From Roseobacter cerasinus (lineage in GTDB: Bacteria; Pseudomonadota; Alphaproteobacteria; Rhodobacterales; Rhodobacteraceae), in contig NZ_BLIV01000005.1 in the NCBI RefSeq assembly GCF_009811755.1, positions 1 through 64,000 on the forward strand: 64,000 nt of DNA. Direction: 5' to 3'. Both the position numbers and the translations under genes were made by a program. The notes under the pieces are model-generated. The model made no database searches, was not told where the DNA came from, and saw only the letters and a program-made list of their open reading frames with translations. The stretch's first letter is position 1. Every line of letters begins with the position of its first letter. Below, one piece after another: positions 7,236-60,194 of this stretch.

Positions 7236-7334
7236 ATGAACACTTTAGACCTTGATTTCAATAAGATAGCCGAAAGGCGCGCTGAGAGCAAGGATCAAGG
7301 CTCCAAATACCTGCCGCCATGGACGGATCAGTAA
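7236..7334 (+). CDS. Putative 32-aa leader ORF coupled to recombinase
   Basis: An ATG at 7236 preceded by GAGG at 7 bases opens a 32-codon frame rich in charged residues (KIAERRAESKDQG). It stops at 7332-7334, 16 bases inside the recombinase gene. The recombinase ATG has no ribosome binding site of its own, so translation by coupling to this frame is likely. I do not recognise the peptide. It could be a small accessory protein or only a coupling leader. An overlapping GTG frame (7136-7255) is an alternative. Confidence 0.4.
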   Translation: MNTLDLDFNKIAERRAESKDQGSKYLPPWTDQ

Positions 7335-8853
7335 ACACCACAACCAAACCAACCAAGGCGGTGATCTACTGCCGTGTCAGCTCCAAAGCGCAGGAAGTCA
7401 CAGGGCATGGGCTTGAGAGCCAAGAGACCCGGTGCCGCCAATTTGCGCAGGCCAAGGGCTATGACGTTGCTGCGGTCTTTCCCGACACGATCACTGGCGG
7501 GGGAGACTTCATGAAACGGCCCGGCATGGTTGCCTTGCTGTCGTTTCTCGATGCGCAGCCGGATGAGCGGTATGTTGTGATCTTCGATGATCTCAAGCGC
7601 TTTGCCCGTGATCGTGATTTCCACTTCCGCCTGCGGGATGCGTTTCGCCAGCGCGATGCCTCGGTCGAGTGTCTGAACTTCACGTTTGAAGATACACCCG
7701 AGGGGGAATTCATCGAAACCATCCTCGCCGCTCAGGGGCAGTTGGAGCGGAAACAAAATGGCCGTCAGGTTGCGCAGAAGATGAAGGCGCGGATGCAGAA
7801 CGGCTATTGGATTCACAACGCGCCCATCGGCTATCGCTATCAAACCGAGAAAGGCCGGGGCAAAGTGCTGATCCCCAACCCGCCGTTTGACAGCATTATC
7901 CGGGAAGCCTTCGAAGGATACGCCTCTGGTCGGTTTGGTTCACAGGCGGAGGTGACGCGCTTTTTCGAATCCATCCCGGAGTTTCCGCGCAACAAGCATG
8001 GCCGGGTCAATCAACAGCGGACAACCGACATTCTGACGCATCCCGCTTACGCTGGGTATATCTGCTCTGAGCGTTACGGACTGAACTGGCTGAAGGCGCA
8101 GCATGAGCCGCTGATATCGCTGGAGACCTTCGACAAGGTGCAAGCGATGCGTTCTGGCACAGCCAAAGCACCCAAGCGCCGCAACATTGGTGATCAGTTT
8201 GCCCTGCGCGGGATCGCCACATGTGCCTGCTGTGACACACCGCTGCGCTCCTGCGTCTCCAAAGGCAAAGGCGGGCTGTATCCGTATTATCTCTGCCAGA
8301 CCAAAGGGTGTGAGGCCTACGGCAAGTCGATCCCACGCGACAAAATCGAAGGAGAGGTCGGCGAGATCGTGAAGGCGCTCACACCAACGGAAAGCCTGAT
8401 CACGCTCACCACGCAGATGTTCAAAGACGCCTGGGCCATGCGCAGCGACCAGGCCAAGGCGAATATCGCTGCTGGCAAGCGTCGTCTTGCATCCATTGAG
8501 CGGGAGATTGAGCAGGTGCTGGCCCGGATCATGGACACCAACAACGACACGGTCATCCGCGCCTATGAAGATAAGCTTGCGAAGCTGGAGCGGGACAAGG
8601 CAAAACAGAGCGAGAATCTCGCCAATCAGATGCCAGCAAAGGGCGCGTTCGACAAAAAACTAGAACTCGCGCTGCGATTCCTCGCAAACCCCTGGAAACT
8701 CTGGGAAACAGGTCACGTTCAGGCTCGCCGGTTGGTGCTGAAACTGGCCTTTGGCGGCCCCATTGCCTACTGCCGAAATAAGCGTGCTAGAACTCCCAAA
8801 ATATCCATACCATTCAAGGTGTTAGGGGATGTTTCGGGTGGTGAATTCTTTTA

Positions 8854-8875
<22 letters not shown>
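7319..8875 (+). CDS. Large serine recombinase (resolvase/recombinase/zinc-ribbon)
   Basis: A 518-residue site-specific recombinase. Residues about 13-160 are the catalytic resolvase domain with the nucleophile in YCRVSSKAQ and the arginines of the active site. About 175-275 is the Recombinase domain. Four cysteines form a zinc ribbon near 300-340 (CACC and a later C-x4-C), and a coiled coil spans about 365-440, as in large serine integrases. Its 3' end runs 22 bases into the minus-strand tRNA-Thr gene, as expected if the attachment site is that tRNA. No other clear phage or ICE genes remain beside it, so it looks like a minimal or stripped element. Confidence 0.9.
8686..8870 (+). repeat. Direct repeat copy 2 (recombinase 3' end / tRNA-Thr junction)
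   Basis: This is the partner of the 6966-7157 repeat, lying within the intact recombinase gene and reaching into the tRNA-Thr acceptor stem. The two copies flank about 1.7 kb that contains the recombinase. They could mark the ends of an element, or successive insertions at one tRNA. Confidence 0.7.
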
Positions 8876-8928
<53 letters not shown>

Positions 8929-30089: not shown

Positions 30090-30923
30090 TCAAACAACAG
30101 CTAAAACGTTATCGATGTTCCGAGATTGCCCGATGGTGGTCGGTTCAAGTCGATGACCCTTCAGCGCCCAATCCACCTCGAAAGCTAACCGTTGGACGGA
30201 TACCAAAGCAGCTTGAGCTTCACGGTAACGGGCAAAGCCTGATTCACCTGGTCGGCGCGCAAGCCGAGAGACCAGTTGGGGGATGTCTCCGTGTAAGATC
30301 TGTTCAGATAAAGCTTCAGCCCAAGGCAGTTCAGACTTCAGCACGGAATGATACCCAAAACCCTTGCGCGTCTTGGCTGCTTGCGATGCCCTATTCTGGT
30401 AATCGATGACTAGGCCAAACACTGTTTCGGAAGCTTGTGGATATTCAGAAATTCCTGCGACGATTCTCTTACTCTCAAACGGGCCGATCGCTGGCGCGAC
30501 AATCATGTCAGCCATGCCCAAAGCGACAGCTTGAGGTTCGTAGATTCTTGCGGAGGTATCGATCAACAAGATATCGATGCCGGTTGCATGTGCGACAGCT
30601 ACCGCGTCTTCAACCTCGTCGCTAGTTTCACATTCCAAAAGACTCAGTTGTTGGCCGCAAAACCCACATCTAGTCATCCGTTTTGTCCAAGCGCGAAGCG
30701 GTGAAACCTGGCACCACGCGAGGTCACTACAATCCATCACCGCAACCCGTTTTCCCTGGGCGAGAAAGCCAGAGGCGAGCGCCATTGTGGATACCGTACG
30801 ACCAGAACCGCCCTTGTTTGCGAAGAATGTGATCGTGTCCATGTCAGATAAACCCTTTTGTCCAGAGAACTTCCTGCAGCGCTCGACAGGATCATATGCA
30901 GCGGCGTTGCGTTCATTCACCAT
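30090..30923 (-). CDS. ParA/VirC1-like P-loop ATPase
   Basis: It belongs to the deviant Walker A group of partition ATPases. The P-loop reads FFANKGGSGRT, so the usual second lysine of KGGxGKT is arginine; the Walker B-like DILLIDTSA is present. The arrangement recalls VirC1 of Ti plasmids, a ParA-like protein that helps conjugative transfer. The gene follows the XRE regulator with a short overlap, suggesting coupled translation. A second start at 30842 (MDTITFF), with AAAGGG upstream, would give a protein beginning right at the ATPase fold. It may serve maintenance or transfer of the integrated element. Confidence 0.7.
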   Translation of the reverse strand: MVNERNAAAYDPVERCRKFSGQKGLSDMDTITFFANKGGSGRTVSTMALASGFLAQGKRVAVMDCSDLAWCQVSPLRAWTKRMTRCGFCGQQLSLLECETSDEVEDAVAVAHATGIDILLIDTSARIYEPQAVALGMADMIVAPAIGPFESKRIVAGISEYPQASETVFGLVIDYQNRASQAAKTRKGFGYHSVLKSELPWAEALSEQILHGDIPQLVSRLARRPGESGFARYREAQAALVSVQRLAFEVDWALKGHRLEPTTIGQSRNIDNVLAVV

Positions 30924-31575
30924 TCGCCAAGTGGCCGCTTACGCCGTCCGGCATATCCTCGGCGACCATCTTGTCCCAAGCAACCGTGTCACGTTCGTAG
31001 GACTCCTGATCTTCTCCATAGTCCTCACAGAAGGGTGGTGCTGGTAGATCTTCAGGGTGATACTTGTAGCGGGTTACCGACCTTACAGCGTCGACTATGT
31101 CGCTAGGTCTCGCCCTGACACCATCGGTTTGCCATGCGAACATTTTGTCAATGACAGCCCGCTTTGTCTTCATTGGCATGCTTTCGTACTTATGACCGAG
31201 AAAACAAAGCGCCTTTATGGCCTCATCAACAACGAACCTGATCGCATCCAGGTTTGGAGCCTTCGAGCCTCCTAGGAGGACTTCGTTCAGATCAGCTCCA
31301 GTGAATGCCTCTAACTGAACAAGGGCACTGGAGGGAATTGCTCGTTTACCCGTTTCGTACATATAGTAGCTTCGCGATGACACGCCCATCATTTCAGCCA
31401 TTTCAGATTTCTTGAATTTCCGTTTTTTACGGAACGCCTCAAGGTTTTCATGCACTTTCACACTGAGCGCTTGAGCGAGAGTTTGATCATTGATCATCGC
31501 CTGCATCGCCGCTTCTTCGGCCTCGTGTTGCTGCTCAGGTGTACCGTCAAATCCCTGAATTGTGAAGTGTGCCAT
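30913..31575 (-). CDS. XRE-family helix-turn-helix protein (220 aa)
   Basis: Residues about 42-100 form a Cro/CI-type helix-turn-helix (KKSEMAEMMGVSSRSYYMYE followed by TGKRAIPSSALVQLEAFTG). The rest is a longer acidic domain I do not recognise. It should be a DNA-binding regulator or partition partner. It overlaps the ParA-like gene by 11 bases and is divergent from the small genes leading to the integrase, so it may control both directions. Confidence 0.75.
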   Translation of the reverse strand: MAHFTIQGFDGTPEQQHEAEEAAMQAMINDQTLAQALSVKVHENLEAFRKKRKFKKSEMAEMMGVSSRSYYMYETGKRAIPSSALVQLEAFTGADLNEVLLGGSKAPNLDAIRFVVDEAIKALCFLGHKYESMPMKTKRAVIDKMFAWQTDGVRARPSDIVDAVRSVTRYKYHPEDLPAPPFCEDYGEDQESYERDTVAWDKMVAEDMPDGVSGHLANGE

Positions 31576-31666
31576 GCCAAATCAGTCCTATAGTTCCGAT
31601 TTTTTGCATCCTGACAAGACGCATCTTGTTTGTAAAGCAAAACTGCGCTTAATTGCGAAAAGTTAC

Positions 31667-31906
31667 ATGGAACGGAGAAAAACGGTGCCCGAACTGCTGA
31701 CGCATGGTCGAACCCCGGAAGAATGGAGCCAGACCCTTGCTGGACACGGGGTACATGTATCGCCACGACTAATTCGCTCAAAAGCGCGCGAAACCGGAAA
31801 CTACCGCCAACTTGGGCATTTGATGCTTTTGCTGCCTTCCCATATCGAAGCTCTGATCGAACCGGGTATTGCAAAGGAAAATCTTAACAGGCCACTGGGA
31901 GGCTGA
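31667..31906 (+). CDS. Small putative DNA-binding protein (excisionase-like, 79 aa)
   Basis: The segment HVSPRLIRSKARETGNYRQL then GHLMLLLPSHIEALIEP resembles the short winged-helix/excisionase-like proteins encoded just before tyrosine integrases in Rhodobacterales islands. The start could be the ATG at 31667 or one further upstream (31574). It is followed at once by the next small gene, then the integrase. The function is inferred from place and motif. Confidence 0.5.
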   Translation: MERRKTVPELLTHGRTPEEWSQTLAGHGVHVSPRLIRSKARETGNYRQLGHLMLLLPSHIEALIEPGIAKENLNRPLGG

Positions 31907-31912
31907 TTGAGG

Positions 31913-32104
31913 ATGCCAAACCCCCGCTCGCCTTCCATGCCAACCAAGCGTCAGATTGAAGAGGCATATAAAATTGCCCGTGATCTGTGCCCCGGAGTTC
32001 GCATCAAAGGCGTTGGACCTGATGGTGTAGTCTTTGAATATCCAGAGAAAGGCGACGAAGCTGATGAGTGGGCAGGCAAACCATTCTCCGGAGATGCAGC
32101 ATGA
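31913..32104 (+). CDS. Small hypothetical protein in integrase operon (63 aa)
   Basis: A small soluble protein with KRQIEEAYKIARDLCPGVRI and GVGPDGVVFEYPEKG. Short proteins of this pattern, upstream of integrases, are familiar from Rhodobacteraceae islands, but I know no function. Its stop overlaps the integrase start (ATGA at 32101-32104). Starts at 31907 (TTG) and 31937 (ATG) are alternatives. Confidence 0.55.
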   Translation: MPNPRSPSMPTKRQIEEAYKIARDLCPGVRIKGVGPDGVVFEYPEKGDEADEWAGKPFSGDAA

Positions 32105-33105
32105 AGAAATTGCCTTACCTTCGATCGAAACTGCGCCGTGGGCGATGGTTTCACACGTATCGTCGTCGTGATGTGGAGCGCTCTTTGGGTGTTCACGGTC
32201 TACATCCAACTGACCCCAAAGTTTTAGCTGCTTGGGCGGCTGAACACGCGCGGTGGCAGGACATGCCACCCGATACCGAAACACCTGAGGCTGGCACTTT
32301 TGCATGGGCGCTGGACCTCTACACGTCCGGTAATGACAAGTGGGCGAAGTATGCGGACGGCACTCGTGACGCCCGCTCTGCGATCTTCAAACGCTATCGC
32401 AAGGCCCAAGGCGCGCGCCCGGTCAAGACGATCACCAGCGAGGCGATAGAACGCGCCCTATGTGCCAAGGGTGGCCATGGTGCCGTGAACGAATACAAGG
32501 CCCTAAAGCCTGTGTTTGAACATCTGCGCCGGTTAGGCTTCATTCGCAAAAACCCGTTAGTAGGGATCGAACTGGACAAGCCGAAAATTCAGGGCTTCCC
32601 GGTCGCAGACGCTGAGGACATTGCCGCTTTTCAAAACCGCTGGCCCGTCGGCACGCGCGAGCGCCTGATATTTGATTTAGGCCTCTACACTGGTGCCGCG
32701 CGGACTGACCTCGCCAAACTCGGGCGCAAGAACATCAAAGACGATCTACTGGTTTATGAGCGCCAGAAAAGCGGGATCATTGCAAGGGTGCCTCTCACCG
32801 CTGAGTTGCGCGCAGTGATCGACCGGACGCCCGACATAGCTCCGGCATTCATCCTCACTCAGGTTGGCAAGCCATTTAAGGCGGCGAGCCTAGGCAATGA
32901 GTTTGGGGACGCGGCGGGCGCGGCTGGGATGGCGTCACGCCTTCATGGCCTGCGCAAAGCCTTTTGCATTTACTGGGCTGAGAACGACGCCACCACGCAC
33001 CAAATCGCGGCGATGGCCGGTCATATGAGCCTTTCAGAGGTGGAGCGTTATACGCGCGCCGCTGACCGTGAACGCATGGTCAAATTGCTGGTAGGGGCGG
33101 CCTGA
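32101..33105 (+). CDS. Tyrosine recombinase / phage-type integrase
   Basis: A 334-residue integrase with an N-terminal core-binding domain (about 55-155) and C-terminal catalytic domain carrying Arg in LYTGAARTDLAKL, the beta-strand Lys (RQKSGIIARVPL), H-x-x-R in RLHGLRKAF, His in AGHMSLSEVERY and the nucleophile Tyr in the same block. It should catalyse insertion and excision of the island at the tRNA-Arg 83 bases downstream. The ATG at 32101 overlaps the previous stop; a longer frame from 32068 is less likely. Confidence 0.9.
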   Translation: MKKLPYLRSKLRRGRWFHTYRRRDVERSLGVHGLHPTDPKVLAAWAAEHARWQDMPPDTETPEAGTFAWALDLYTSGNDKWAKYADGTRDARSAIFKRYRKAQGARPVKTITSEAIERALCAKGGHGAVNEYKALKPVFEHLRRLGFIRKNPLVGIELDKPKIQGFPVADAEDIAAFQNRWPVGTRERLIFDLGLYTGAARTDLAKLGRKNIKDDLLVYERQKSGIIARVPLTAELRAVIDRTPDIAPAFILTQVGKPFKAASLGNEFGDAAGAAGMASRLHGLRKAFCIYWAENDATTHQIAAMAGHMSLSEVERYTRAADRERMVKLLVGAA

Positions 33106-33187
33106 AATGGGACACGCCTACCTCAAAGCGGGACACACCCGCGCAACCTATTGTAAGATCGGAGAAAAAATCATGCAGATAGCAAAA

Positions 33188-33264
33188 TGGCGACCCCGGC
33201 AGGATTCGAACCTGCAACCTGCCCCTTAGGAGGGGGCTGCTCTATCCAGTTGAGCCACGGGGCC
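33188..33264 (-). tRNA. tRNA-Arg (CCT anticodon)
   Basis: The minus strand folds into a complete cloverleaf: acceptor GGCCCCG/CGGGGTC, D-arm GCTC/GAGC, anticodon stem GCCCC/GGGGC with loop CTCCTAA (anticodon CCT), T-arm GCAGG TTCGAAT CCTGC, discriminator G and encoded CCA (33188-33190). The integrase next to its 3' end makes it the probable attachment site of the accessory region. Confidence 0.95.
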
Positions 33265-49730: not shown

Positions 49731-50165
49731 TTAGAACTGCGCGAGTTTGATCAGGACCCGTCTCAGGACGGTTTGTTCCTCCAGGGTGAAATCCCGGAGC
49801 ATATTCGCGTCAAACCGCTGTGCTTCCTGACAGAGATCGCCAAACACCTGCCCCCCACGCGTGGTCAGCATCAGATATTCACCGCGCCGGTCTTCTGGCA
49901 GATCTGTCCGTGACAGCAAGCGCTTGTGTTCCAGCGCAGAGACAGCCCGGCTGACCTTTGTCTTGTGAATGCGGGCCCGCTGGCAAATCTCCTTGGCCTG
50001 CATCCGACCGTAGCGCCCCAGGTGAAAGAGCACGCGCCATTCCGTTCTCAGCATGCCGTAGCGAGATTTATAATAGGTCTGGAACTCCAGACTTGCCCGC
50101 TCCGCTGCCTGGTTGAGGATATAGGGCAAAAACCCCTGCAGATCGAATACGTCTTTTTCATTCAT
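49731..50165 (-). CDS. MarR-family regulator of the homogentisate operon
   Basis: A 144-residue winged-helix protein: MQAKEICQRARIHKTKVSRA is the recognition region and DLPEDRRGEYLMLTTRGGQV the wing with the conserved D-x-R-x-x. The ATG at 50165 (MNEKDVF) is chosen; the longer frame to 50375 runs across the divergent promoter and hmgA. The shared 71-base region carries a palindrome, so it likely represses hmgA in the absence of an aromatic effector. Confidence 0.88.
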   Translation of the reverse strand: MNEKDVFDLQGFLPYILNQAAERASLEFQTYYKSRYGMLRTEWRVLFHLGRYGRMQAKEICQRARIHKTKVSRAVSALEHKRLLSRTDLPEDRRGEYLMLTTRGGQVFGDLCQEAQRFDANMLRDFTLEEQTVLRRVLIKLAQF

Positions 50166-50185
50166 ACTGTCGGATTTAGCCTTGT

Positions 50186-50203
50186 TAGTTACAAAAGCAA
50201 CTA
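50186..50203. promoter_or_regulatory. Palindromic operator between MarR gene and hmgA
   Basis: TAGTTAC-AAAA-GCAACTA is an inverted repeat with 7-base arms and one mismatch, the spacing usual for MarR-family sites. It lies about 20 bases from the MarR start and 33 from the hmgA start, so one protein could control both promoters. Confidence 0.65.
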
Positions 50204-50236
50204 TTACGCGTGGGGCAGGCCGCTGAGGAGGAGCGC

Positions 50237-51598
50237 ATGAACACGCACACACCATCATCGACGCTGACATCTGCGACAACGCCGGTTGGCACAACCGACG
50301 GATACATGCCCGGCTTTGGCAATGACTTTGAGACCGAAGCACTGCCGGGCGCCTTGCCGCAGGGGATGAATTCACCGCAGAAATGCAACTACGGGCTTTA
50401 TGGTGAGCAGCTGTCGGGGACCGCCTTCACCGCGCCGAGCCATCAGAACGAGCGCAGCTGGTGCTACCGCATCCGTCCTTCCGTCAAGCACACGCACCGC
50501 TTTGAGAAGATCGACCTGCCCTATTGGGCGTCAGCACCGCATATTGACCCGGATGTCATTTCCCTGGGGCAGTATCGCTGGGACCCGGTGCCGCATGGCG
50601 ATCAGGGGCTGACATGGCTCACAGGCATGCGCACGATGACCACGGCCGGTGACGTGAATACGCAGGTGGGCATGGCGAGCCATATCTATCTGGTCACCGA
50701 AAGCATGGTGGACAGTTACTTCTACTCGGCTGACAGCGAACTGCTGGTGGTGCCGCAGGAGGGCCGCTTGCGGTTTTGCACCGAACTGGGGGTGATCGAT
50801 CTGGAGCCGCAGGAGATCGCCATCCTGCCGCGCGGGCTGGTTTATCGGGTGGAGGTGTTGGAGGGCCCCTGCCGTGGCTTTATCTGCGAGAATTACGGCC
50901 AGAAGTTCGAGTTGCCCGGGCGTGGCCCTATTGGCGCCAATTGCATGGCCAACCGGCGGGATTTCAAGACACCGGTGGCCGCCTTTGAAGACCACGAGGT
51001 GCCTTCAACCGTCACGGTGAAATGGGCGGGGCAGTTCCATGAAACCCGGATTGGTCACTCGCCGCTCGATGTGGTCGCCTGGCACGGCAACTACGCGCCC
51101 TGTAAATATGACCTGCGCACCTATTGCCCCGTGGGCGCGATCCTCTTTGATCACCCGGATCCGTCGATCTTTACGGTGCTCACAGCACCCTCGGGTGTAG
51201 AGGGCACAGCCAATATCGACTTTGTGCTCTTCCGCGACCGCTGGATGGTGGCCGAAGACACCTTCCGCCCGCCCTGGTACCACAAGAACGTGATGTCTGA
51301 GCTGATGGGAAATATCTTCGGGATCTATGACGCCAAGCCGGAGGGCTTTGTGCCCGGCGGCATGAGCTTGCACAATATGATGCTACCGCATGGGCCTGAC
51401 AAAAACGCCTTTGAGGGCGCATCAAATGCCGATCTCGCACCCGAATATCTCGCCAACACGATGTCGTTCATGTTCGAGACGCGTTTCCCGCAGCATCTGA
51501 CCGCCTTTGCTGCAAAGGAAGCGCCGCTGCAGGATGACTACATCGACTGCTGGTCCGATCTTGAGAAGAAGTTCGACGGCACACCCGGCAAGAAATAG
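50237..51598 (+). CDS. hmgA: Homogentisate 1,2-dioxygenase
   Basis: An Fe(II) ring-cleavage enzyme that opens homogentisate to maleylacetoacetate in tyrosine and phenylacetate-type breakdown. The protein is 453 residues with [20 protein letters not shown] near the N-terminus and the iron/substrate block [19 protein letters not shown]. The ATG at 50237 follows GAGGAGGAG by 3-11 bases; the frame from 50210 is an extension. It is the first gene of the six-gene operon. Confidence 0.97.
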
Positions 51599-51610: not shown

Positions 51611-52867
51611 ATGCCTTTGATGAAAAGCTGGGTGGTTTCGGCGAATACGGCTGAGACGCCGTTTCCCTTGAACAACCTGCCCTACGGCGTCTTTTCCACA
51701 GACGTCACCGAACCGCGTTGCGGTGTGGCGATTGGTGATATGATCCTTGATATGGCCGCTTGCGAGGCGGCAGGGGTGATCGTGCTGGATGATGAAGGCG
51801 CCTTTGACCTGCCCTACTGGAACGACGTCATGGAACTGGGCCCCGGCGTCTGGGCCAAGCTCCGCGCGCGTCTGGTCGAGCTCCTCGAAGAAAGGTCGGT
51901 GCTGCGGACCCAGGTTGAACCGCACCTCGTGTCACAGGCGGACGCTGAAATGCACATGCCGTTTCTGGTGCATGAGTTCACCGATTTCTACGCAGGAAAA
52001 CATCACGCCATGAACGTCGGCACCATGTTCCGCGGGCCGGAGAATGCACTGCCGCCCAACTGGCTGCATATTCCAATAGGTTACAACGGGCGGGCCTCAA
52101 CCGTTGTGGTCTCCGGAACGGAGATAACCCGCCCCAATGGGCAGACCAAGGCGCCAGAGGCAGATGTGCCCTCTTTCGGCCCCTGCAGACGGCTCGACAT
52201 CGAGCTGGAGATGGGGGCTATTGTCGGCACATCATCGCGCATGGGCCAGCCAATGTCGGTGCAAGAGGCCGATGACATGATCTTTGGCTATGTGCTGCTG
52301 AACGACTGGTCCGCGCGCGACATTCAGGCCTGGGAATACCAGCCGTTGGGGCCGTTCCAGGCCAAGGCCTTTGCCACGTCGATCAGCCCCTGGATCGTGA
52401 CAAAAGCCGCGCTGGAGCCCTTCCGCACCTCGACCCCAGCGCGCGAGCGGGAGCTGTTGCCCTATCTGAAAGAACCCGAGCCGATGCTCTATGACATCGA
52501 GCTGGAGGTCACGATGGCGCCCAAAGATCAGCCTGCCACCACCATCGCGCGCACCAACTACAGCGAAATGTATTACTCCGCCGCGCAGCAGCTGGCCCAT
52601 CATGCGTCGTCAGGCTGTGCCATGACGGCGGGCGATCTGCTGGGGTCGGGCACGATCTCTGGGCCTGAGAAATCACAACGCGGCTCCTTGCTTGAGCTGA
52701 GCTGGGGCGGCAAAGAGCCACTGACGCTCGACACCGGAGAGACCCGCACGTTTATCGAGGACGGCGACACACTGACGTTGCACGGGGCCGCCAAAGGCGA
52801 CGGGTATCAGATTGGCTTTGGGATCTGCACCGGCACCATCGCCCCCGCCGCGCGATCCCCCACATAA
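51611..52867 (+). CDS. fahA: Fumarylacetoacetase
   Basis: It hydrolyses fumarylacetoacetate to fumarate and acetoacetate, the last step of the homogentisate pathway, with a Ca/Mg site. The protein is 418 residues. Visible are EFTDFYAGKHHAMNVGTMFR (catalytic-His and metal region), the DIELEMGAIVG acidic motif and LLNDWSARDIQAWEYQPLGP. It lies 12 bases after hmgA. Confidence 0.96.
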   Translation: MPLMKSWVVSANTAETPFPLNNLPYGVFSTDVTEPRCGVAIGDMILDMAACEAAGVIVLDDEGAFDLPYWNDVMELGPGVWAKLRARLVELLEERSVLRTQVEPHLVSQADAEMHMPFLVHEFTDFYAGKHHAMNVGTMFRGPENALPPNWLHIPIGYNGRASTVVVSGTEITRPNGQTKAPEADVPSFGPCRRLDIELEMGAIVGTSSRMGQPMSVQEADDMIFGYVLLNDWSARDIQAWEYQPLGPFQAKAFATSISPWIVTKAALEPFRTSTPARERELLPYLKEPEPMLYDIELEVTMAPKDQPATTIARTNYSEMYYSAAQQLAHHASSGCAMTAGDLLGSGTISGPEKSQRGSLLELSWGGKEPLTLDTGETRTFIEDGDTLTLHGAAKGDGYQIGFGICTGTIAPAARSPT

Positions 52868-52878
52868 GGACCACCACA

Positions 52879-53829
52879 ATGGCCAAAGCATTCGCCTCGC
52901 AGGGGGATCTGACCGAAAAGACCATCACCTTCGACGAGGTGGGGCGTGACCTGTGGGCCTTTACCGCCGAGGGCGACCCGAACTCCGGCGTGATCATCGG
53001 TGACGAGAGTGTGATGATTGTTGAGGCGCAGGCCACCCCGCGTCTGGCACAAAAGGTGATCGACAAGGTGCGGTCGGTCACCGACAAGCCGATCAGTCAT
53101 CTGGTGCTCACGCATTATCATGCGGTGCGTGTGCTCGGCGCGGCGGCTTACGGCGCGCCGCAGATCATCATGTCAGATGTGGCCCGCAGCATGGTTGTCG
53201 AACGCGGGCAGGAGGATTGGGACAGCGAGTTCCAGCGCTTTCCGCGCCTCTTCGAAGGGCATGAGAGCATCCCCGGGCTGACCTATCCCACAACAACCTT
53301 CTCGGACAGCATGACCGTCTATCTCGGCAAACGGCGGGTGGACATCAAGCACATCGGGCGGGCGCATACGGCGGGGGACGCGGTGATCCATGTGCCGGAT
53401 GAAAACGTGATGTTCACAGGCGATATCGTCGAGGATCACTCCGCCTGTTACTGCGGTGACGGACACTTCGCAGACTGGGGCGCGACGCTTGACCGGATCG
53501 CAGCCCATGACGTCGACGCCATTGCCCCCGGGCGTGGTGCCGCACTTGTGGGCAAAGAGGCCGTCGCGCGCGCCATCGCAAGTACGCGCGATTTTGTCCA
53601 GTCGACCTGTGTCCCGGCAGCACGGGTGGCCGCGCGCGGCGGCGATCTGAAAGAGGCCTGGGAGGCGGTGCGCGCCACCTGCGATCCGAAGTTCAAGGAC
53701 TATGCCATTTACGAGCACTGCCTGCCCTTCAACGTCAGCCGCGCCTACGACGAAGCGCGCGGCATCGACACGCCGCGCATCTGGACAGCGCAGCGGGATC
53801 TGGACATGTGGGCGGCCCTTCAGGGCTGA
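52879..53829 (+). CDS. MBL-fold hydrolase-like protein with altered metal site
   Basis: A 316-residue metallo-beta-lactamase-fold protein in the homogentisate operon, 11 bases after fahA. The normal HxHxDH reads HYHAVR here, so the Asp and third His are replaced, while the later GRAHTAGDAVIH and FTGDIVEDH motifs are kept. One of the two metal positions is therefore probably lost. It might hydrolyse a ring-cleavage intermediate or thioester, or act with the monooxygenase; no function is established. No signal peptide is seen. Confidence 0.75.
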   Translation: MAKAFASQGDLTEKTITFDEVGRDLWAFTAEGDPNSGVIIGDESVMIVEAQATPRLAQKVIDKVRSVTDKPISHLVLTHYHAVRVLGAAAYGAPQIIMSDVARSMVVERGQEDWDSEFQRFPRLFEGHESIPGLTYPTTTFSDSMTVYLGKRRVDIKHIGRAHTAGDAVIHVPDENVMFTGDIVEDHSACYCGDGHFADWGATLDRIAAHDVDAIAPGRGAALVGKEAVARAIASTRDFVQSTCVPAARVAARGGDLKEAWEAVRATCDPKFKDYAIYEHCLPFNVSRAYDEARGIDTPRIWTAQRDLDMWAALQG

Positions 53830-53851: not shown

Positions 53852-55492
53852 ATGGTCGCAGCGAGATATCAAACCGCCGTCACCCTCTATCCCTATCAGA
53901 AGGTTGCGGATCAGGCCGCGTCGACACCGGCCCGGCATCCGGTTGTCATCATCGGTGGTGGCCCGGTGGGGTTAGCGCTGGCCCTCGATCTAGGACAGCG
54001 CGGAACGCCTGCGCTGGTGCTGGACGATCACGAGGGCCCCGGCCTCGGCTCGAAGGCCATCTGCTTTGCCAAGCGCACGCTCGACATTGCCACGCGTCTG
54101 GGTGCCGGGGCCGCGATGGTTGAGAAAGGGGTCGTCTGGAGCCTCGGCAAGGTCTTTCACGGGGACGGCAAGGTCTTCGAGTTCGACCTCTTGCCGGAGG
54201 ATGGCCACCGCAACCCGGCCTTCATCAACCTGCAGCAACCCTATTTCGAGACCTTCCTGTTCGACGCGATCAGGCGGGCACAAGCCGGTGGCGCGCCCAT
54301 CGAGGTGCGCGGCGGCAATAGGGTAACCGACGTCAGACCTGCAGAGGATCAGGTGGGGCTCACGGTCGATACGCCCGACGGGCCCTATGCGGTGGAGGCC
54401 GACTGGGTGATTGCCTGCGACGGTGCGCGCTCCCCCACACGGGACATGCTGGGGCTCAGCTTTGACGGTCGGGTCTTTGAGGACAGCTTCCTGATCGCCG
54501 ATGTGAAAATGCAGGCCCCCTTCCCGACCGAACGCTGGTTCTGGTTTGACCCGCCCTTCAAAGGCGCTGGCCAATCGGCTCTGCTGCACAAGCAACCCGA
54601 CGACATCTGGCGGATCGACTTCCAGCTGGGATGGGACATTGATCGGGAGGAGGAATTGAAGCCGCAGCGCATCTGCGCCCGCGTAGATGAAATGCTGTCC
54701 GCACAAACCGGAGAGGTACCGGAGTACGCGCTGGAGTGGACCTCCATCTACACCTTCCAGTGCCGCCGCATGCAGGCGTTCCGCCATGGCCGGGTGCTTT
54801 TTGCTGGGGACAGCGCGCATCAGGTATCGCCATTCGGCGCGCGCGGCGCGAACTCCGGCGTGCAGGATGCGGAAAACCTTGCCTGGAAGCTTGATCTCAT
54901 GTGCAACGGGCTGGCAGAGGACGCGCTGCTCGACACATACGCAGAGGAGCGGGAATACGCGGCGGATGAGAATATCCTCAATTCCACCCGGTCCACCGAT
55001 TTCATGACGCCGAAGTCGGAGATAAGCCAGGTCTTCCGCAACGCGGTGCTGGAACTGGCGGCGCGCGCGCCATTTGCGCGGCCTTTGGTCAATTCCGGGC
55101 GGCTCTCTGTGCCTTGCGTCTATGACGGCTTGACGCTGTTTGGCGAAGATCATCTGGACGGACCGCCTGCCACCCGCCCCGGCACCCCGGCCGTGGACTG
55201 CAAGCTGGGCCAGACGTTTCTACTGGAACGGCTGCATCCCGGCTTCACGCTGCTGGCCATAGACGCGGATACACCAGAACAGATCGAAGCGGGCGGGCTT
55301 CTGGCCCGGAGGCTGGAATTATCTGCCCAGACAAATCCCCTGCTGGCAGAGCGATATCTTGGCAACGCACCCTCCGCTGTCTATCTCATCCGGCCCGACC
55401 AGCATATCGTTGCGCGGTGGCCTACCTTTGACCATGAGGCCGTGAAGCGCGCCTCGCACATCGCCATTGGAAAGGCTGCGCCATGCCCTTGA
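53852..55492 (+). CDS. Class A FAD-dependent aromatic monooxygenase (MhpA/MhaA-like)
   Basis: A 546-residue flavoprotein hydroxylase. The FAD dinucleotide fold VVIIGGGPVGLALALDLGQR is near residue 30, the DG motif is ACDGARSPTRDMLGL, and the GD motif is LFAGDSAHQVSPFGARGANS. A thioredoxin-like C-terminal region follows, as in phenol/3-hydroxyphenylpropionate hydroxylases. In this operon it would most simply make homogentisate from 3-hydroxyphenylacetate or a related phenol; that assignment is inference. The ATG at 53852 follows GGGGGGAGG. The stop overlaps the DUF2783 gene. Confidence 0.85.
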   Translation: MVAARYQTAVTLYPYQKVADQAASTPARHPVVIIGGGPVGLALALDLGQRGTPALVLDDHEGPGLGSKAICFAKRTLDIATRLGAGAAMVEKGVVWSLGKVFHGDGKVFEFDLLPEDGHRNPAFINLQQPYFETFLFDAIRRAQAGGAPIEVRGGNRVTDVRPAEDQVGLTVDTPDGPYAVEADWVIACDGARSPTRDMLGLSFDGRVFEDSFLIADVKMQAPFPTERWFWFDPPFKGAGQSALLHKQPDDIWRIDFQLGWDIDREEELKPQRICARVDEMLSAQTGEVPEYALEWTSIYTFQCRRMQAFRHGRVLFAGDSAHQVSPFGARGANSGVQDAENLAWKLDLMCNGLAEDALLDTYAEEREYAADENILNSTRSTDFMTPKSEISQVFRNAVLELAARAPFARPLVNSGRLSVPCVYDGLTLFGEDHLDGPPATRPGTPAVDCKLGQTFLLERLHPGFTLLAIDADTPEQIEAGGLLARRLELSAQTNPLLAERYLGNAPSAVYLIRPDQHIVARWPTFDHEAVKRASHIAIGKAAPCP

Positions 55493-55665
55493 CCCTGCAC
55501 CCCAACATCACCGACCCGGATGGGTTCTATCAGGAGCTTCTCGACGCCCATGAGGGGAAGACCAAAGCCGACAGTGACGCGCTCAACGCTCGCCTGATCC
55601 TGATCCTGGCCAACCATATCGGTGACCGCGCGGTGTTGCGCGACGCGTTGGAGGCCGCAAAATGA
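55483..55665 (+). CDS. DUF2783 family small protein (60 aa)
   Basis: The short protein NITDPDGFYQELLDAHEGKT followed by ALNARLILILANHIGDRAVL matches DUF2783, which is usually encoded directly after a flavin aromatic monooxygenase. It overlaps the monooxygenase by 10 bases and maiA by 4, so all three are coupled. It may be a small partner of the hydroxylase, as in two-component 3-hydroxyphenylacetate hydroxylase; that is speculation. Confidence 0.78.
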   Translation: MPLTLHPNITDPDGFYQELLDAHEGKTKADSDALNARLILILANHIGDRAVLRDALEAAK

Positions 55666-56282
55666 GCAAAGTCGTTCTGTGGGACTACCCGCATTCCTCC
55701 GCCAGCTACCGTGTCCGCATCGCGCTCAATCTGGCAGGTATCGCCTACGACGCAGAGCAAGTCGATCTGTCACAAAAGGCCCACCGCACAGCGGAGCATC
55801 TGGCCCGCAACCCCCAAGGCCTTGTGCCGGTGCTCGACATCGACGGGCACCGCATTGCGCAATCCCTGGCGATCATCGAATATCTGGACGAGACGCGCGC
55901 GCTGGGGCTGTTGCCGCAAGATCCCGCCGCACGGGCGACCCTGCGCGCGCTGGCCTATATCATCGCTGTCGATCTGCACCCCGTCTGCAACATGTCGGTG
56001 GCCACGCACGCCACGCAAGGGCAAGAACCCGCCCGCACCAACTGGATGCGCCACTTCATCACTCCGGCGCTGATCGCCTTTGAGGCCCGGTTGGCTGCCT
56101 TCGAGCAGGCTCCCTTTGCAACAGGAGACGCGCCAAGCCTGGCCGACATCTGCCTGATCCCGCAGCTTTACAACGCGCGGCGATGGGGGGTCGACTACAG
56201 CGGTTGCGCCCGCATCCGGGCCGTTGAGGCCGCCTGCCAAACGCTTGACGCCTTCCGGGATGCAGCACCCGACGCCGCCTAA
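55662..56282 (+). CDS. maiA: Maleylacetoacetate isomerase
   Basis: A glutathione S-transferase of the zeta class that isomerises maleylacetoacetate to fumarylacetoacetate using glutathione. The protein is 206 residues, with the N-terminal active-site motif HSSASYRVRIALNLAGI (zeta SSxSxRVRIAL), NPQGLVPVLDIDG for glutathione binding and an alpha-helical C-domain. It closes the operon and completes the homogentisate-to-fumarate route. Confidence 0.93.
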   Translation: MSKVVLWDYPHSSASYRVRIALNLAGIAYDAEQVDLSQKAHRTAEHLARNPQGLVPVLDIDGHRIAQSLAIIEYLDETRALGLLPQDPAARATLRALAYIIAVDLHPVCNMSVATHATQGQEPARTNWMRHFITPALIAFEARLAAFEQAPFATGDAPSLADICLIPQLYNARRWGVDYSGCARIRAVEAACQTLDAFRDAAPDAA

Positions 56283-56291
56283 GCGGGTATT

Positions 56292-59200
56292 CTAGAGGTC
56301 AACCTCCACCACACCGCCCTCTTGCGCCGCGCGGGACTGGCAGAGGATCACGGAGGTTTCGCGTTGGGCTTTCGACAAGACAAAATCCCGATGCTCGACC
56401 TCGCCCGAAACCAAGCCGCATTTGCACACACCGCAGATCCCGTCAGAGCATTTGACATCAATCGCAACGCCGTTTTCACGCAGGACATCCGTGGCTGACC
56501 TCTCTGCGGGGACAGACAGCAGTTTGCCGGAGCGCGTCAGTTTCAGCGCAAACGCATGGTTGACGTAGTCGGGCTGCTCGGGCACCGAAAAATACTCGGA
56601 ATGGCAGGCGTCTTCAGGATACCCGGCGCACCCGGCAGCTTGCAAAACGCTGGCCATATAGCTGGCGCCACCGCAGGTATAGAGGTGCCAGCCTAACTGG
56701 TAACGTGGCAGCAGAGCATTCAGATCCGCGCGGCGGCCCTCGTCGGAGATGTGCAACTGAACGGCGTCGGCCCACGGAGACCCGGCAATCTCATCCAGCA
56801 GCGCCATACTGGCCCGTGACCGCCCTGAGTAGTGCAACTCAAACGGCTGACCTTGCGCATGCAGCTCATGTGCCATGGCCACCATCGGGGTGATCCCGAT
56901 ACCGCCCGCCATGAGGATGGATCTTGTTGCCCCAGGATCAAGCGGGAAGTGATTGATGGGTCGGGAAATGAAGACCCGCCGCCGGACCGAGAAGATCCGA
57001 TGCAGAAGCTGCGACCCGCCGCGCCCGTCCGCTTCCCTTAGAACGGCGATCTGGTACTTTGTCCGATCTGCCGGATCCCCGCACATGGAATACTGGCGCA
57101 TGAATTCCGGCGCCACCACGATGTCGAGATGCGCGCCCGCGGACCACTCCGGCAAAAGGCCCCCCTCGACCGGTGCAAACTCATATATCATGACATGCTC
57201 GGCACTGCGCTCTGCCCGGATGATCTCCACCTGAATGACGGGGCTGTCGCTAGCGGCCTCGTATCGGTGCACCGCGCTCTCATCGCCTCTCGCCAGCCGC
57301 GCCTTGTACTCCTCGGGCGTGATCAGGGCACGATAGGCCGTGATCCCAGCCTCCCGATCCATCGGGAACGGATAGGGCGCGGGCGGCGGTGCCAGAGGCG
57401 CGGGATAGACGGCCAGCGTCTGATCCTCGTATTTGAGGTCCAGATCCTTTTGCAGCGCACGCTGGTTTGGAGGATTTCGGGTCGGGCGGTACCCGCCATC
57501 TTCCTCGATCTCAAGATCCCACCACCACTTCTTGACCGGGTTCAGCGTGCCGTTGTCCACCGCGTCATCCAACCGCGCCAGCGCAGGCGCCAGCTTTGGC
57601 ACAGTCATCGCGGCCCAGCGGAAGGGTCTCTCCTTGAAGAGGCCCTCCAGATTCCACGGGCAGGTCTTCATACAGCGGCCACACATGGCCCCCCCGGACG
57701 TGGTGATCCGGTAGGTCGCGCATTTCTGGCTGTCGGATTTCCAGATTTCATAGCCATTGAACATCAGCTTCGGCCCGGCGGTGATCGCGCCTGACGGGCA
57801 TTCGCGCGCGCATTTGTTGCAGCTTTCGCAGAACCTTTGCAGGCCGAAGTCGATAGGTTTGTCATGTGCCAGTGGCAGGTCGGTTGTGATCGTACCCGAC
57901 TTCAGCCGCGGCCCCAGAAAGGGGTTGAGGATCACCTCACCGATGCGGCTGACCTCACCCAACCCTGACAGCAGCAGAAGCGGCGGTTGCAGCACTTCGC
58001 CATCCATCACCGTATGGGCCTTTGCCTCATAGCCCAGATTGCGGATCTGCCGGGCAATCACACCGCCCAGCAGGGAAAAGCGCAAGTAGGCTCGCATGCT
58101 TTGCGCCACAGCGATCCAATCGTCGCCGGACGAGCCCTCCATCGTCTCACGCCCCTGATCGATAATCATGTTGATGGCATGATCATGCGGCGGGTCGATA
58201 AGCTCGCCACGGGCGTCATGGCTGTACCAGACCCAATCGGGGCATCGCGACAGACCCACCGCATCAGCACCCAGCCAATAGCTCGTGGCCTTGATCAGAT
58301 CGGCGGCCTCTTGCGGGTCGAGGCGGGCTTTCTCTGTCGCTATCGCCCCATCCTGCAACAGCGAGAACGCGGCCAACGCGCGCCGCTGCGCCATGGACGG
58401 TGCCGCCCGGCGGATGTATTGCCCGCCTTTGGCACCGTCTTGCACTTTCTTCCCCATATCGCCGAATTGGGCACGTGCGAACATGTCGGCTCGTTTTGGA
58501 ACCCGCGCGACACGTGCCTCGTCAATGTAGGTCGTTGGTGTGTCGACCCGTTTCAATGTCTCAAACGGATGCGCGCCATCCACGAAGCGGCGTTTGGCGA
58601 AAGGCACGGCAGTTGCGGCGGTCTTGGCCGAGGCCGTCCCAAACCACCAGGCCGGGCCAAACGCGGATTTTGGCTGCGCCGGTCGCGGAACAAGGGGCTT
58701 ATCAGGCGCGAGCACAAAGGTGGTGGTGACCGCCGCCAACCCGAACCTGTCTCCGATATAGGGATGCAGCAGGCGACCATCCTCCAGCGTCGCGAGACCG
58801 GCAGCAGCCGCGAGCCTGCCAAGGTCCACATCCGAGTTGGACACAGTGTGCCCCCGAGCGTCATAACCCAGAAGACGCAGATAGTTGGCCAGGACGATGG
58901 CCGTCTCTGCTGCCAGCAGACCGGCACGATGGGACTGCGCATCCCGGATCCAGCGCCCCCCCACCTCGTCTGCCTCCGGTGTTCTCGGGTTCTCGTAAAG
59001 CAGGACCAAAGCATGGGTATGAGCGGCAATGCTGGTCGGCGGAGCGGTCACTGACTCTTTGAGATCCGCCAGCGTGCTGTCGATGCCCGCCGCGAAGGTC
59101 TTGGTCTGGCGGGTCTGTAGATCTCGCACCAGACGCGCCACATCCGGGTTTGTGAAAGCTTGGGGCAAGGTCAGATCCGGTGACAGCAAACAAACCCCAA

Positions 59201-59501
59201 CATCTGCCGCATCGGCGAAATATCCAAATGCTTTCAGATGATTGGCCCGTTCCTGTGGATCTTTGGGCGCATCTGCAACCACAGCGTTGACCGGGCCACT
59301 GCGGATCGCATCGAGCGTCGCCTGATGATCGCACATAGCGTTGATGATCGACGCAGGATCTTGTGGCCGCCGAAACGCCAGCGGACGCATGGGCGGAACC
59401 GCCCGGAGGTCTGGCCGATCTTCACGCCGGGCCAGCTGCTCGGTCGGGTACGGCCCCATGTGAACCGGGCGGGTCTTGTCGGAGAAAAACCGCATCGTCA
59501 T
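56292..59501 (-). CDS. Self-sufficient reductive dehalogenase (BhbA/NpRdhA-like) fused to an FMN/[2Fe-2S] reductase
   Basis: A 1069-residue fusion. Residues 1 to about 700 are a reductive dehalogenase module with two internal cobalamin-domain-like repeats (LGYDARGHTV near 215, LGYEAKAHTV near 490). Two 4Fe-4S ferredoxin clusters follow at about 557-620 (CESCNKCARECPSG and CGRCMKTCPWN). About 745-960 is a flavin reductase with RQYSMCGDP and LMAGGIGITPMVAMAH. About 985-1069 is a plant-type [2Fe-2S] domain (CSDGICGVCKCG and ILCQS). There is no Tat signal, unlike respiratory enzymes. BhbA and NpRdhA of this layout remove halogen from hydroxybenzoates and halophenols using NAD(P)H and B12. The ATG at 59501 follows AAGG by 5 bases; the next ATG is 2 codons on. 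Confidence 0.85.
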   Translation of the reverse strand: MTMRFFSDKTRPVHMGPYPTEQLARREDRPDLRAVPPMRPLAFRRPQDPASIINAMCDHQATLDAIRSGPVNAVVADAPKDPQERANHLKAFGYFADAADVGVCLLSPDLTLPQAFTNPDVARLVRDLQTRQTKTFAAGIDSTLADLKESVTAPPTSIAAHTHALVLLYENPRTPEADEVGGRWIRDAQSHRAGLLAAETAIVLANYLRLLGYDARGHTVSNSDVDLGRLAAAAGLATLEDGRLLHPYIGDRFGLAAVTTTFVLAPDKPLVPRPAQPKSAFGPAWWFGTASAKTAATAVPFAKRRFVDGAHPFETLKRVDTPTTYIDEARVARVPKRADMFARAQFGDMGKKVQDGAKGGQYIRRAAPSMAQRRALAAFSLLQDGAIATEKARLDPQEAADLIKATSYWLGADAVGLSRCPDWVWYSHDARGELIDPPHDHAINMIIDQGRETMEGSSGDDWIAVAQSMRAYLRFSLLGGVIARQIRNLGYEAKAHTVMDGEVLQPPLLLLSGLGEVSRIGEVILNPFLGPRLKSGTITTDLPLAHDKPIDFGLQRFCESCNKCARECPSGAITAGPKLMFNGYEIWKSDSQKCATYRITTSGGAMCGRCMKTCPWNLEGLFKERPFRWAAMTVPKLAPALARLDDAVDNGTLNPVKKWWWDLEIEEDGGYRPTRNPPNQRALQKDLDLKYEDQTLAVYPAPLAPPPAPYPFPMDREAGITAYRALITPEEYKARLARGDESAVHRYEAASDSPVIQVEIIRAERSAEHVMIYEFAPVEGGLLPEWSAGAHLDIVVAPEFMRQYSMCGDPADRTKYQIAVLREADGRGGSQLLHRIFSVRRRVFISRPINHFPLDPGATRSILMAGGIGITPMVAMAHELHAQGQPFELHYSGRSRASMALLDEIAGSPWADAVQLHISDEGRRADLNALLPRYQLGWHLYTCGGASYMASVLQAAGCAGYPEDACHSEYFSVPEQPDYVNHAFALKLTRSGKLLSVPAERSATDVLRENGVAIDVKCSDGICGVCKCGLVSGEVEHRDFVLSKAQRETSVILCQSRAAQEGGVVEVDL

Positions 59502-59631
59502 CCTGCCTTGACGTGGCCGAGGGGCGCTCTGGCGCACCAAACAATGCGGCCGGCGCCCGCACCGCTGCCGTCCGATTTCGCTGGCCTGATCACGCTATGC
59601 TCCACACTCATCGAAGTTAGTTATAGATGTT

Positions 59632-59654
59632 AATTATTTTATTTAGAAATAATT
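59632..59654. promoter_or_regulatory. AT-rich inverted repeat between dehalogenase and MarR genes
   Basis: AATTATTT and AAATAATT (perfect 8-base arms, 7-base spacer) lie in the 213-base divergent region, in a local AT-rich patch unlike its GC-rich flanks. MarR-family proteins often bind such repeats, so it is the best operator candidate for the divergent pair. Confidence 0.6.
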
Positions 59655-59714: not shown

Positions 59715-60194
59715 TTGACACAGAAAATTTCGCAGCGCAGCGCTGTGCCGACGGACTATAGGTTGCGGCACCGACTGGGGTTCAGGCTGAGCCGACTGTC
59801 TCGCCTGATGCAGAGCCGTCTCGAGGCCGACCTTGCCGATTACGGGCTGACCCGGCTGCGCTGGTGCGTTCTGTCAAGCGTGGAGATCGAAGGGCATCAC
59901 GCGCCGTCGGAGCTGGCCGAGCACATCGGGATCACGCGGCCTGCCATGTCCCGCCTGCTTAAGGCGATGATCCGCGAAGGTCTTGTCGAACGCGCCCTAG
60001 ACGACGCGGATGGCAGGTCGCGCCAGATCTCGGTCACCGAGGCCGGGCGCGCCAAGTTGCACGCGTCCTGGCGGAAGGTTGATGCCAATCAGGCGCATTT
60101 TATGTCGAAACTATCCAGCACACAGCAAGCGGCGCTGTATGACGCGCTCGACAGCCTTATGATGGGCGAATCCAAGATGTTGGATGACCTCTAG
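59715..60194 (+). CDS. MarR-family regulator divergent from reductive dehalogenase
   Basis: A 159-residue winged-helix regulator: helix-turn-helix PSELAEHIGITRPAMSRLLK and wing ERALDDADGRSRQISVTEAG. It starts with TTG (59715), with GGAG 8 bases upstream. Place and orientation suggest that it controls the dehalogenase gene, probably responding to a halogenated or hydroxylated aromatic; this is inference. Confidence 0.85.
   Translation: MTQKISQRSAVPTDYRLRHRLGFRLSRLSRLMQSRLEADLADYGLTRLRWCVLSSVEIEGHHAPSELAEHIGITRPAMSRLLKAMIREGLVERALDDADGRSRQISVTEAGRAKLHASWRKVDANQAHFMSKLSSTQQAALYDALDSLMMGESKMLDDL

Follow-up and report, generated by a model that had tools for sequence, protein, structure and literature searches.

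A putative self-sufficient reductive dehalogenase beside a homogentisate gene cluster in Roseobacter cerasinus

Background

Among the catabolic reductive dehalogenases, JtRdhA of the marine bacterium Jhaorihella thermophila (WP_104007082) catalyzes the NADPH-dependent debromination and deiodination of phenols, also in air, while leaving the tested chlorophenols untouched, and it allowed Escherichia coli W to grow on 3-bromo-4-hydroxyphenylacetate (PMC10463259). Catabolic RdhAs are described there as carrying a vestigial duplicate of the cobalamin domain. Homologues of a second such enzyme, BhbA, are almost all from marine aerobic proteobacteria according to a review (PMC5316534), bhbA grouped with a largely alphaproteobacterial gene cluster in a metagenome study (PMC3939436), and a 2026 paper describes putative bhbA homologues as widespread in the Roseobacter clade (PMC13101508). 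Here we describe a gene, rdhA, in positions 1 to 64,000 of contig NZ_BLIV01000005.1 of Roseobacter cerasinus, this whole stretch of 64,000 nucleotides being termed the window and the genome to which it belongs G000. Its product is predicted, with a probability of roughly 0.85, to be a catabolic reductive dehalogenase that is cytoplasmic and self-sufficient, like BhbA and JtRdhA, and a debrominase function is very likely. The architecture, catalytic residues and neighbours are read from sequence, the chemistry would follow that of the characterised relatives, and the substrate and regulation are proposed from context alone. The position of the gene beside homogentisate genes is the less expected part of the finding.

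To our knowledge, no natural marine substrate has been settled for the fused aerobic debrominases.

Domain architecture of RdhA

The gene and the parts of its product are as follows.

56292..59501, minus strand: rdhA, predicted self-sufficient catabolic reductive dehalogenase, 1069 aa (profile searches, structure matches, alignment to BhbA)
58677..59249, minus strand: N-terminal vestige of a cobalamin-type domain, residues 85-275 (aligns by profile with residues 395-556; weak match to the reductive dehalogenase profile)
57834..58319, minus strand: catalytic cobalamin domain, residues 395-556, with S468, M469, Y472 and K534 (NpRdhA alignment, conservation)
57651..57830, minus strand: two [4Fe-4S] motifs, residues 558-617 (Fer4_16/Fer4_7, motif search)
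56322..57239, minus strand: phthalate-dioxygenase-reductase-like module, residues 755-1060, with flavin and NAD(P)H parts and a C-terminal [2Fe-2S] (2pia, Fer2)

The open reading frame (ORF) begins with an ATG at 59501 and its stop codon ends at 56292, with a possible alternative TTG start at 59540, 13 codons further upstream. The reductive dehalogenase (RDH) model TIGR02486 matches the protein at 201 bits against an NCBIfam cut-off of 160, and Pfam models detect a double [4Fe-4S] domain (Fer4_16/Fer4_7) and a plant-type Fer2 domain at residues 991-1058. The [4Fe-4S] motifs are located at residues 558-568 and 607-614. Conservation was assessed across 95 aligned rows from a total of 99 loci, both figures including the window, with L029, L071, L079 and L080 omitted as the script recovered no whole ORF from them; the eight [4Fe-4S] cysteines are kept in all 95 sequences and C594 is likewise invariant. 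The reductase module is marked by the flavin motif RQYS at residue 802, GGIGITP at 866 and the [2Fe-2S] motif CSDGICGVC at 1018. Residues 755-1060 align with phthalate dioxygenase reductase (2pia) at E 7.8e-56, and the solved-structure matches of residues 755-1064 are the reductase parts of self-sufficient P450s and 2pia. For the protein as a whole, the top solved-structure sequence match is NpRdhA (E ~1e-162, covering residues 2-109 and 160-738).

The initial annotation of this stretch, made from the sequence without database searches, had read the gene as an RDH module with two 4Fe-4S motifs joined to a flavin reductase and a [2Fe-2S] domain, and the model matches, motifs and the 2pia alignment bear this out. 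It had also reported the absence of a twin-arginine translocation (Tat) signal. None is apparent here either, given that the RR pairs of the first 60 residues occur only in RREDRPDL and RRPQDPAS and that a hydrophobic stretch after them is absent by eye. The two internal repeats that it had connected to a duplicated cobalamin domain, LGYDARGHTV at residues 211-220 and LGYEAKAHTV at residues 489-498, fall inside its first and its second copy, respectively. A profile-profile alignment of residues 85-275 with residues 395-556 yields E 9e-21 with 31% identity over 150 columns, and the N-terminal copy is matched weakly by the RDH profile (33.5 bits). The domain duplication is real.

Active site and structural model

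Sequence alignment equates F341, S468, M469, Y472, K534 and R598 of RdhA with F291, S422, M423, Y426, K488 and R552 of NpRdhA, the set named as conserved active-site residues (PMC10463259). F341 and R598 lie outside residues 395-556. All six are identical in the 95 aligned sequences, the RdhA of the window among them, and the catalytic tyrosine and lysine that the initial annotation had proposed to seek by alignment with NpRdhA are both present (Y472/K534, equivalent to Y426/K488).

An AlphaFold2 model built from 34 sequences, namely the RdhA of the window and 33 of the 80 named loci defined below, was weak, with a mean predicted local distance difference test score of 64.1, a predicted template modelling score of 0.54 and poor values over the cofactor regions. 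Foldseek searches with this model returned 14 NpRdhA chains on top, followed by 6kbh and 2pia. Its overlay on NpRdhA gave a root-mean-square deviation of about 11 Å, and hence no pocket geometry is claimed.

Phyletic distribution and descent

A full-length RdhA homologue is present in all 19 genomes of the genus survey, its own included, and 55 of the 149 genomes of the family survey, each from a different genus, contain a match at E 1e-200 or better; partial matches within the family listing are those of G117 and G120 and the second one in G157. Plasmid records matching RdhA number 90, with at least 80% of the query covered in 8 of them, including plasmids of Yoonia, Jannaschia, Ruegeria and Tritonibacter. 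In a FastTree phylogeny of the 95 rows, the window and G011 fall within a 42-row clade with a local support of 100, and the other 17 members of the genus lie outside this clade as two groups of 9 and 8. Inheritance of rdhA in the genus is therefore not a single line of descent, and this separation suggests that the gene was gained or replaced by transfer.

The homogentisate neighbourhood

Homogentisate is a breakdown product of tyrosine. The genes that precede rdhA in the window are as follows.

49731..50375, minus strand: MarR-family regulator, divergent from hmgA, start uncertain, overlapping hmgA as listed (family models)
50237..51598, plus strand: hmgA, homogentisate 1,2-dioxygenase (TIGR01015, 641 bits, cut-off 511)
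51611..52867, plus strand: fahA, fumarylacetoacetase (TIGR01266, 524 bits, cut-off 375)
52879..53829, plus strand: metallo-beta-lactamase-fold (MBL) protein (PF00753)
53852..55492, plus strand: FAD-dependent aromatic-hydroxylase-like oxidoreductase (FMO) (NF006002, 733 bits, cut-off 416)
55662..56282, plus strand: maiA, maleylacetoacetate isomerase (TIGR01262, 219 bits, cut-off 171)

The gene rdhA stands at the end of this MarR-hmgA-fahA-MBL-FMO-maiA cluster, convergent with maiA and with 9 bp between the two stop codons. Scanning of named genomes yielded 510 confirmed rdhA relatives, of which the best 80 are the named loci counted here, with flanks of up to 10 kb per side that are whole on both sides in 45 of the 80. 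HmgA is encoded within 10 kb of the rdhA homologue in eight of these loci (L005, L006, L007, L008, L010, L014, L026 and L062), the same eight being recovered when the HmgA, FahA and MaiA searches were repeated without the low-complexity filter, against a rough chance expectation of 0.4 of 80 (our estimate, from 20 kb in ~4.3 Mb, the related loci not being independent). Two more named loci, L064 and L065, have the MBL and FMO genes without HmgA in the rdhA flank. Within the 45 loci with whole flanks, HmgA is found in five, and the MBL and FMO genes in L064 and L065. Among the 18 other loci of the genus, that of G011 is the sole one with cluster genes beside rdhA, namely fahA, MBL and FMO; HmgA was not found in the G011 pieces fetched. 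In L042 (Jannaschia marina), a homologue of the hmg-linked MarR (58% over 0.6 of its length) lies directly after rdhA on the same strand, from 13207.

The placement of rdhA varies: some copies converge on the FMO/maiA end of the cluster, that of L010 follows FMO in the same direction, and those of L007 and L062 sit at the MarR end. The 12 hmg-linked rows require at least 7 changes on the tree, 6 of them forced by well-supported branches. Shuffled labels required a mean of 11.5 changes and reached as few as 7 in none of 500 trials, indicating that the linked rows also cluster by descent, and the 42-row clade alone contains 11 of the 12. It is possible, with odds somewhat short of even, that the product of RdhA enters the adjacent homogentisate pathway, and bromotyrosine-type substrates are plausible.

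Several observations weigh against a dedicated homogentisate connection. The homogentisate link is patchy. In the window itself, rdhA is convergent with maiA and lies outside its operon. When the FMO gene was used as a proxy for the cluster in the one-genome-per-genus survey, 41 of the 55 rdhA-bearing family genomes also had it, with both genes within 10 kb in only 3 of the 41 (the window, G025 and G045; 41 and 3 are hand counts). Within the genus, 17 genomes have the FMO gene, and rdhA adjoins it only in the window genome and G011; at the FMO loci of 16 other members HmgA was found in 7, the G008 piece being cut by a contig end. The FMO/MBL pair itself also occurs in stretches where HmgA was not found. 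In L127 the pair adjoins other genes, judged by eye to encode a luciferase-like monooxygenase, flavin reductase and aldehyde dehydrogenase. Finally, the pocket-edge residues of NpRdhA, whose roles have been described (PMC7565698), are not kept in RdhA: F290, K307, F310, P311, A419 and N452 become M, A, G, Q, V and V when paired by hand, and the substrate is hence not readable from the sequence. Five of these six positions are mostly occupied by a single residue (79 to 94 of the 95 rows), and position 361 is highly variable. Pocket residues were tried as a guide to substrate and set aside, as no edge position separates the hmg-linked from the pobA-linked enzymes among the 95 rows.

These points bear on an alternative concerning the substrate only, which we rate as evenly balanced: the same debrominase would serve 4-hydroxybenzoate/protocatechuate catabolism, as in BhbA, or the general detoxification of bromophenols, and the hmg neighbours would be a coincidence of gene shuffling. 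In its favour, of 98 related loci, 5 (L055, L060, L067, L072 and L082) have pobA directly downstream of rdhA, co-directional and no more than 60 bp away, each of these genes scoring above the TIGR02360 cut-off; pobA is 3.4 kb from the homologue in Nitratireductor sp. OM-1; protocatechuate 4,5-dioxygenase genes adjoin BhbA; PobA is encoded on another contig of the R. cerasinus genome; and the fetched flanks of 70 of the 80 named loci contain no hmg-cluster genes (full 10 kb on both sides in 45 of the 80). Against it stand the recurrence of HmgA in several gene orders at a frequency well above the chance estimate, and the minimum of seven changes on the tree, although nearly all linked rows share one clade.

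Transporter genes are a further recurrent neighbour: in 7 of 98 loci rdhA is preceded, at no more than 100 bp, by a TRAP large permease gene (that of L043, the sole one of the seven checked against family models, matches dctM at 308 bits, cut-off 268), and an annotated Yoonia plasmid shows the order MarR, three TRAP genes and the rdhA homologue. The pobA and TRAP neighbours point to the same general role as the hmg context, and RdhA may supply debrominated phenols to the ring-cleavage route that happens to be encoded nearby. In 16 of the 18 other genus loci (L095-L096 and L098-L111), a gene from one of three clusters is found near rdhA; by eye these are an aldehyde dehydrogenase, a zinc-type alcohol dehydrogenase/quinone reductase and a GMC oxidoreductase, the aldehyde dehydrogenase representative (L043) being the only one of the three checked against family models.

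The divergent regulator and a candidate operator

Upstream of rdhA lie two further features.

59618..59636, no strand assigned: palindrome TAATTAACATCTATAACTA, a tentative operator in the stretch that separates rdhA from the divergent MarR gene (consensus scoring)
59715..60194, plus strand: MarR-family regulator, divergent from rdhA (family models)

At the clustering threshold used, 6 other loci of the 98 have a homologue of this MarR in the rdhA flank. The consensus TAGTTA-N7-TAACTA was drawn by eye from upstream regions, and the operator scores are consequently not independent of it. Of nine MarR upstream regions, those of the window, L003, L064 and L077 match at 11-12 of the 12 positions, that of L122 at 10 and those of L034 and L059 at 9, with no control stretch from the same locus scoring as high in any of these seven; the consensus fails at L021 (23 of 173 controls as high) and L125 (79 of 142). 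In the ~320 bp upstream of rdhA itself, scored for 97 of the 99 loci, 11 positions match in the window alone, 9 in five loci and 8 or fewer in 91. The palindrome at 59618-59636 can only tentatively be considered a MarR operator.

A broader scenario, which we regard as rather doubtful, sees a marine clade of RdhA-reductase fusions as specialised for halogenated tyrosine catabolites. By removing bromine (or iodine) from 3-bromo-4-hydroxyphenyl acids, these enzymes would let aerobic, B12-making roseobacters channel marine bromotyrosines into homogentisate catabolism; rdhA would have been drawn to hmg loci repeatedly, and its MarR would bind TAGTTA-N7-TAACTA. Searches of the open-licence literature on reductive dehalogenases turned up no paper whose title or opening abstract lines name a link between rdhA and homogentisate.

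Alternative enzyme classes

It is most improbable that RdhA is an epoxyqueuosine reductase (QueG), or some other cobalamin/Fe-S enzyme without dehalogenating activity, joined to a reductase. Such a protein would belong to the same class III cobalamin superfamily (PMC10463259), and the QueG model TIGR00276 does match weakly, but its 27 bits fall far short of the cut-off of 200, and the RDH model exceeds its own; the NpRdhA catalytic residues are present, and the genome encodes a true QueG as a separate gene (348 aa, TIGR00276 450 bits). A QueG identity was rejected on these scores. The profile searches suggested by the initial annotation thereby favour the dehalogenase, and the best matches, which it had allowed might be epoxyqueuosine reductase-only proteins, are catabolic reductive dehalogenases (BhbA, 51% identity over the full length, and NpRdhA). 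A respiratory reductive dehalogenase, to which membership of the RDH family alone would point, was rejected as equally improbable given the lack of an apparent Tat signal, the fused soluble reductase and the duplicated cobalamin domain as in catabolic subfamilies.

Host genome and proposed mechanism

By the joint action of 4-hydroxyphenylpyruvate dioxygenase (HPPD) and the hmg cluster, 4-hydroxyphenylpyruvate can be degraded to fumarate and acetoacetate. The R. cerasinus genome encodes HPPD on contig C9 and PobA on contig C3, together with CobN (1673 bits, cut-off 1235) and CobT (364 bits, cut-off 319). Judged from these genes and the hmg cluster, the needs of the enzyme appear to be met by the cell as far as tested.

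As a self-sufficient dehalogenase, RdhA would use NADPH to reduce the FMN of its reductase module, from which electrons would reach base-off cobalamin by way of the [2Fe-2S] and the two [4Fe-4S] clusters. The cobalt, once reduced, would take the halogen ortho to the phenolic hydroxyl, with a proton supplied by Y472 with the help of K534 and R598, in line with the roles described for their counterparts in relatives (PMC10463259, PMC7565698). The predicted products are a halogen-free phenol and a halide, with no energy conserved; the phenol may then pass into the adjacent homogentisate pathway, e.g. from bromotyrosine-derived 4-hydroxyphenyl acids, and the divergent MarR may control rdhA.

The repeated ties to homogentisate and 4-hydroxybenzoate offer a direct, testable substrate hypothesis for a common gene (present in 19 of 19 genomes examined in the genus and 55 of 149 in the family). 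If it is true, tyrosine-type organobromine turnover in oxic seawater would be linked to B12-making roseobacters.

Other features of the genome were observed. The stretch at 30090-33264 of the window, with a phage-integrase-family gene (32068-33105) by a tRNA-Arg (33188-33264) and VirC1/ParA-like and helix-turn-helix genes, looks like a small integrated element. At 7319-8928 there is a large serine recombinase (Resolvase and Recombinase domains), whose 3' end overlaps an opposite-strand tRNA-Thr (8854-8928). Contig C2 (L143) encodes a BchH magnesium chelatase (NF009942, 2044 bits, cut-off 1166), a sign of possible aerobic anoxygenic phototrophy in this organism.

Comparison with characterised reductive dehalogenases

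Roseobacter sp. MED193 contains another catabolic reductive dehalogenase without Tat, Ros_A3X954, which debrominates 2,6-dibromophenol (PMC13101508). Its [4Fe-4S] motifs, unlike those of RdhA, are at residues 283-294 and 337-345, implying a first part much shorter than that of RdhA. It resembles a 388-aa paralogue on contig C11 of the R. cerasinus genome rather than RdhA. This second reductive dehalogenase (L002 1225-2391; L144 6676-7839) lacks the reductase module, matches TIGR02486 at 172 bits (cut-off 160) and has the motifs CDICTKCAEACP and CAICMRVCP, nearly those of Ros_A3X954; of the other 18 genomes of the genus, 9 have short matches like it.

NpRdhA of Nitratireductor pacificus (4ras, 6zxu) has a cobalamin and Fe-S half like that of RdhA, at 39-40% identity, but has no reductase module according to PMC10463259. 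The layout that the initial annotation had attributed to both BhbA and NpRdhA is therefore shared with the former only. BhbA, from plasmid pBHB of Comamonas sp. 7D-2 (WP_015585978), is co-linear with RdhA over the whole length at 51% identity and contains all of its domains and mapped catalytic residues; it differs in its neighbours, since on its IncP plasmid it lies beside genes for protocatechuate 4,5-dioxygenase and not beside a homogentisate cluster. JtRdhA, compared by its description in PMC10463259, has an RdhA-like architecture with no Tat signal, a duplicated cobalamin domain and the six active-site residues; the text, from which the words "homogentisate" and "operon" are absent, yielded no description of its gene neighbourhood. 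As JtRdhA removes bromine and iodine and not chlorine, the activity of RdhA is best worded as "debrominate or deiodinate", which retains, as a prediction, the non-respiratory role initially proposed and narrows the scope of its aromatic dehalogenation. RdhA is of a kind already known, also in roseobacters, and common there, and its right comparators are BhbA and JtRdhA, not NpRdhA.

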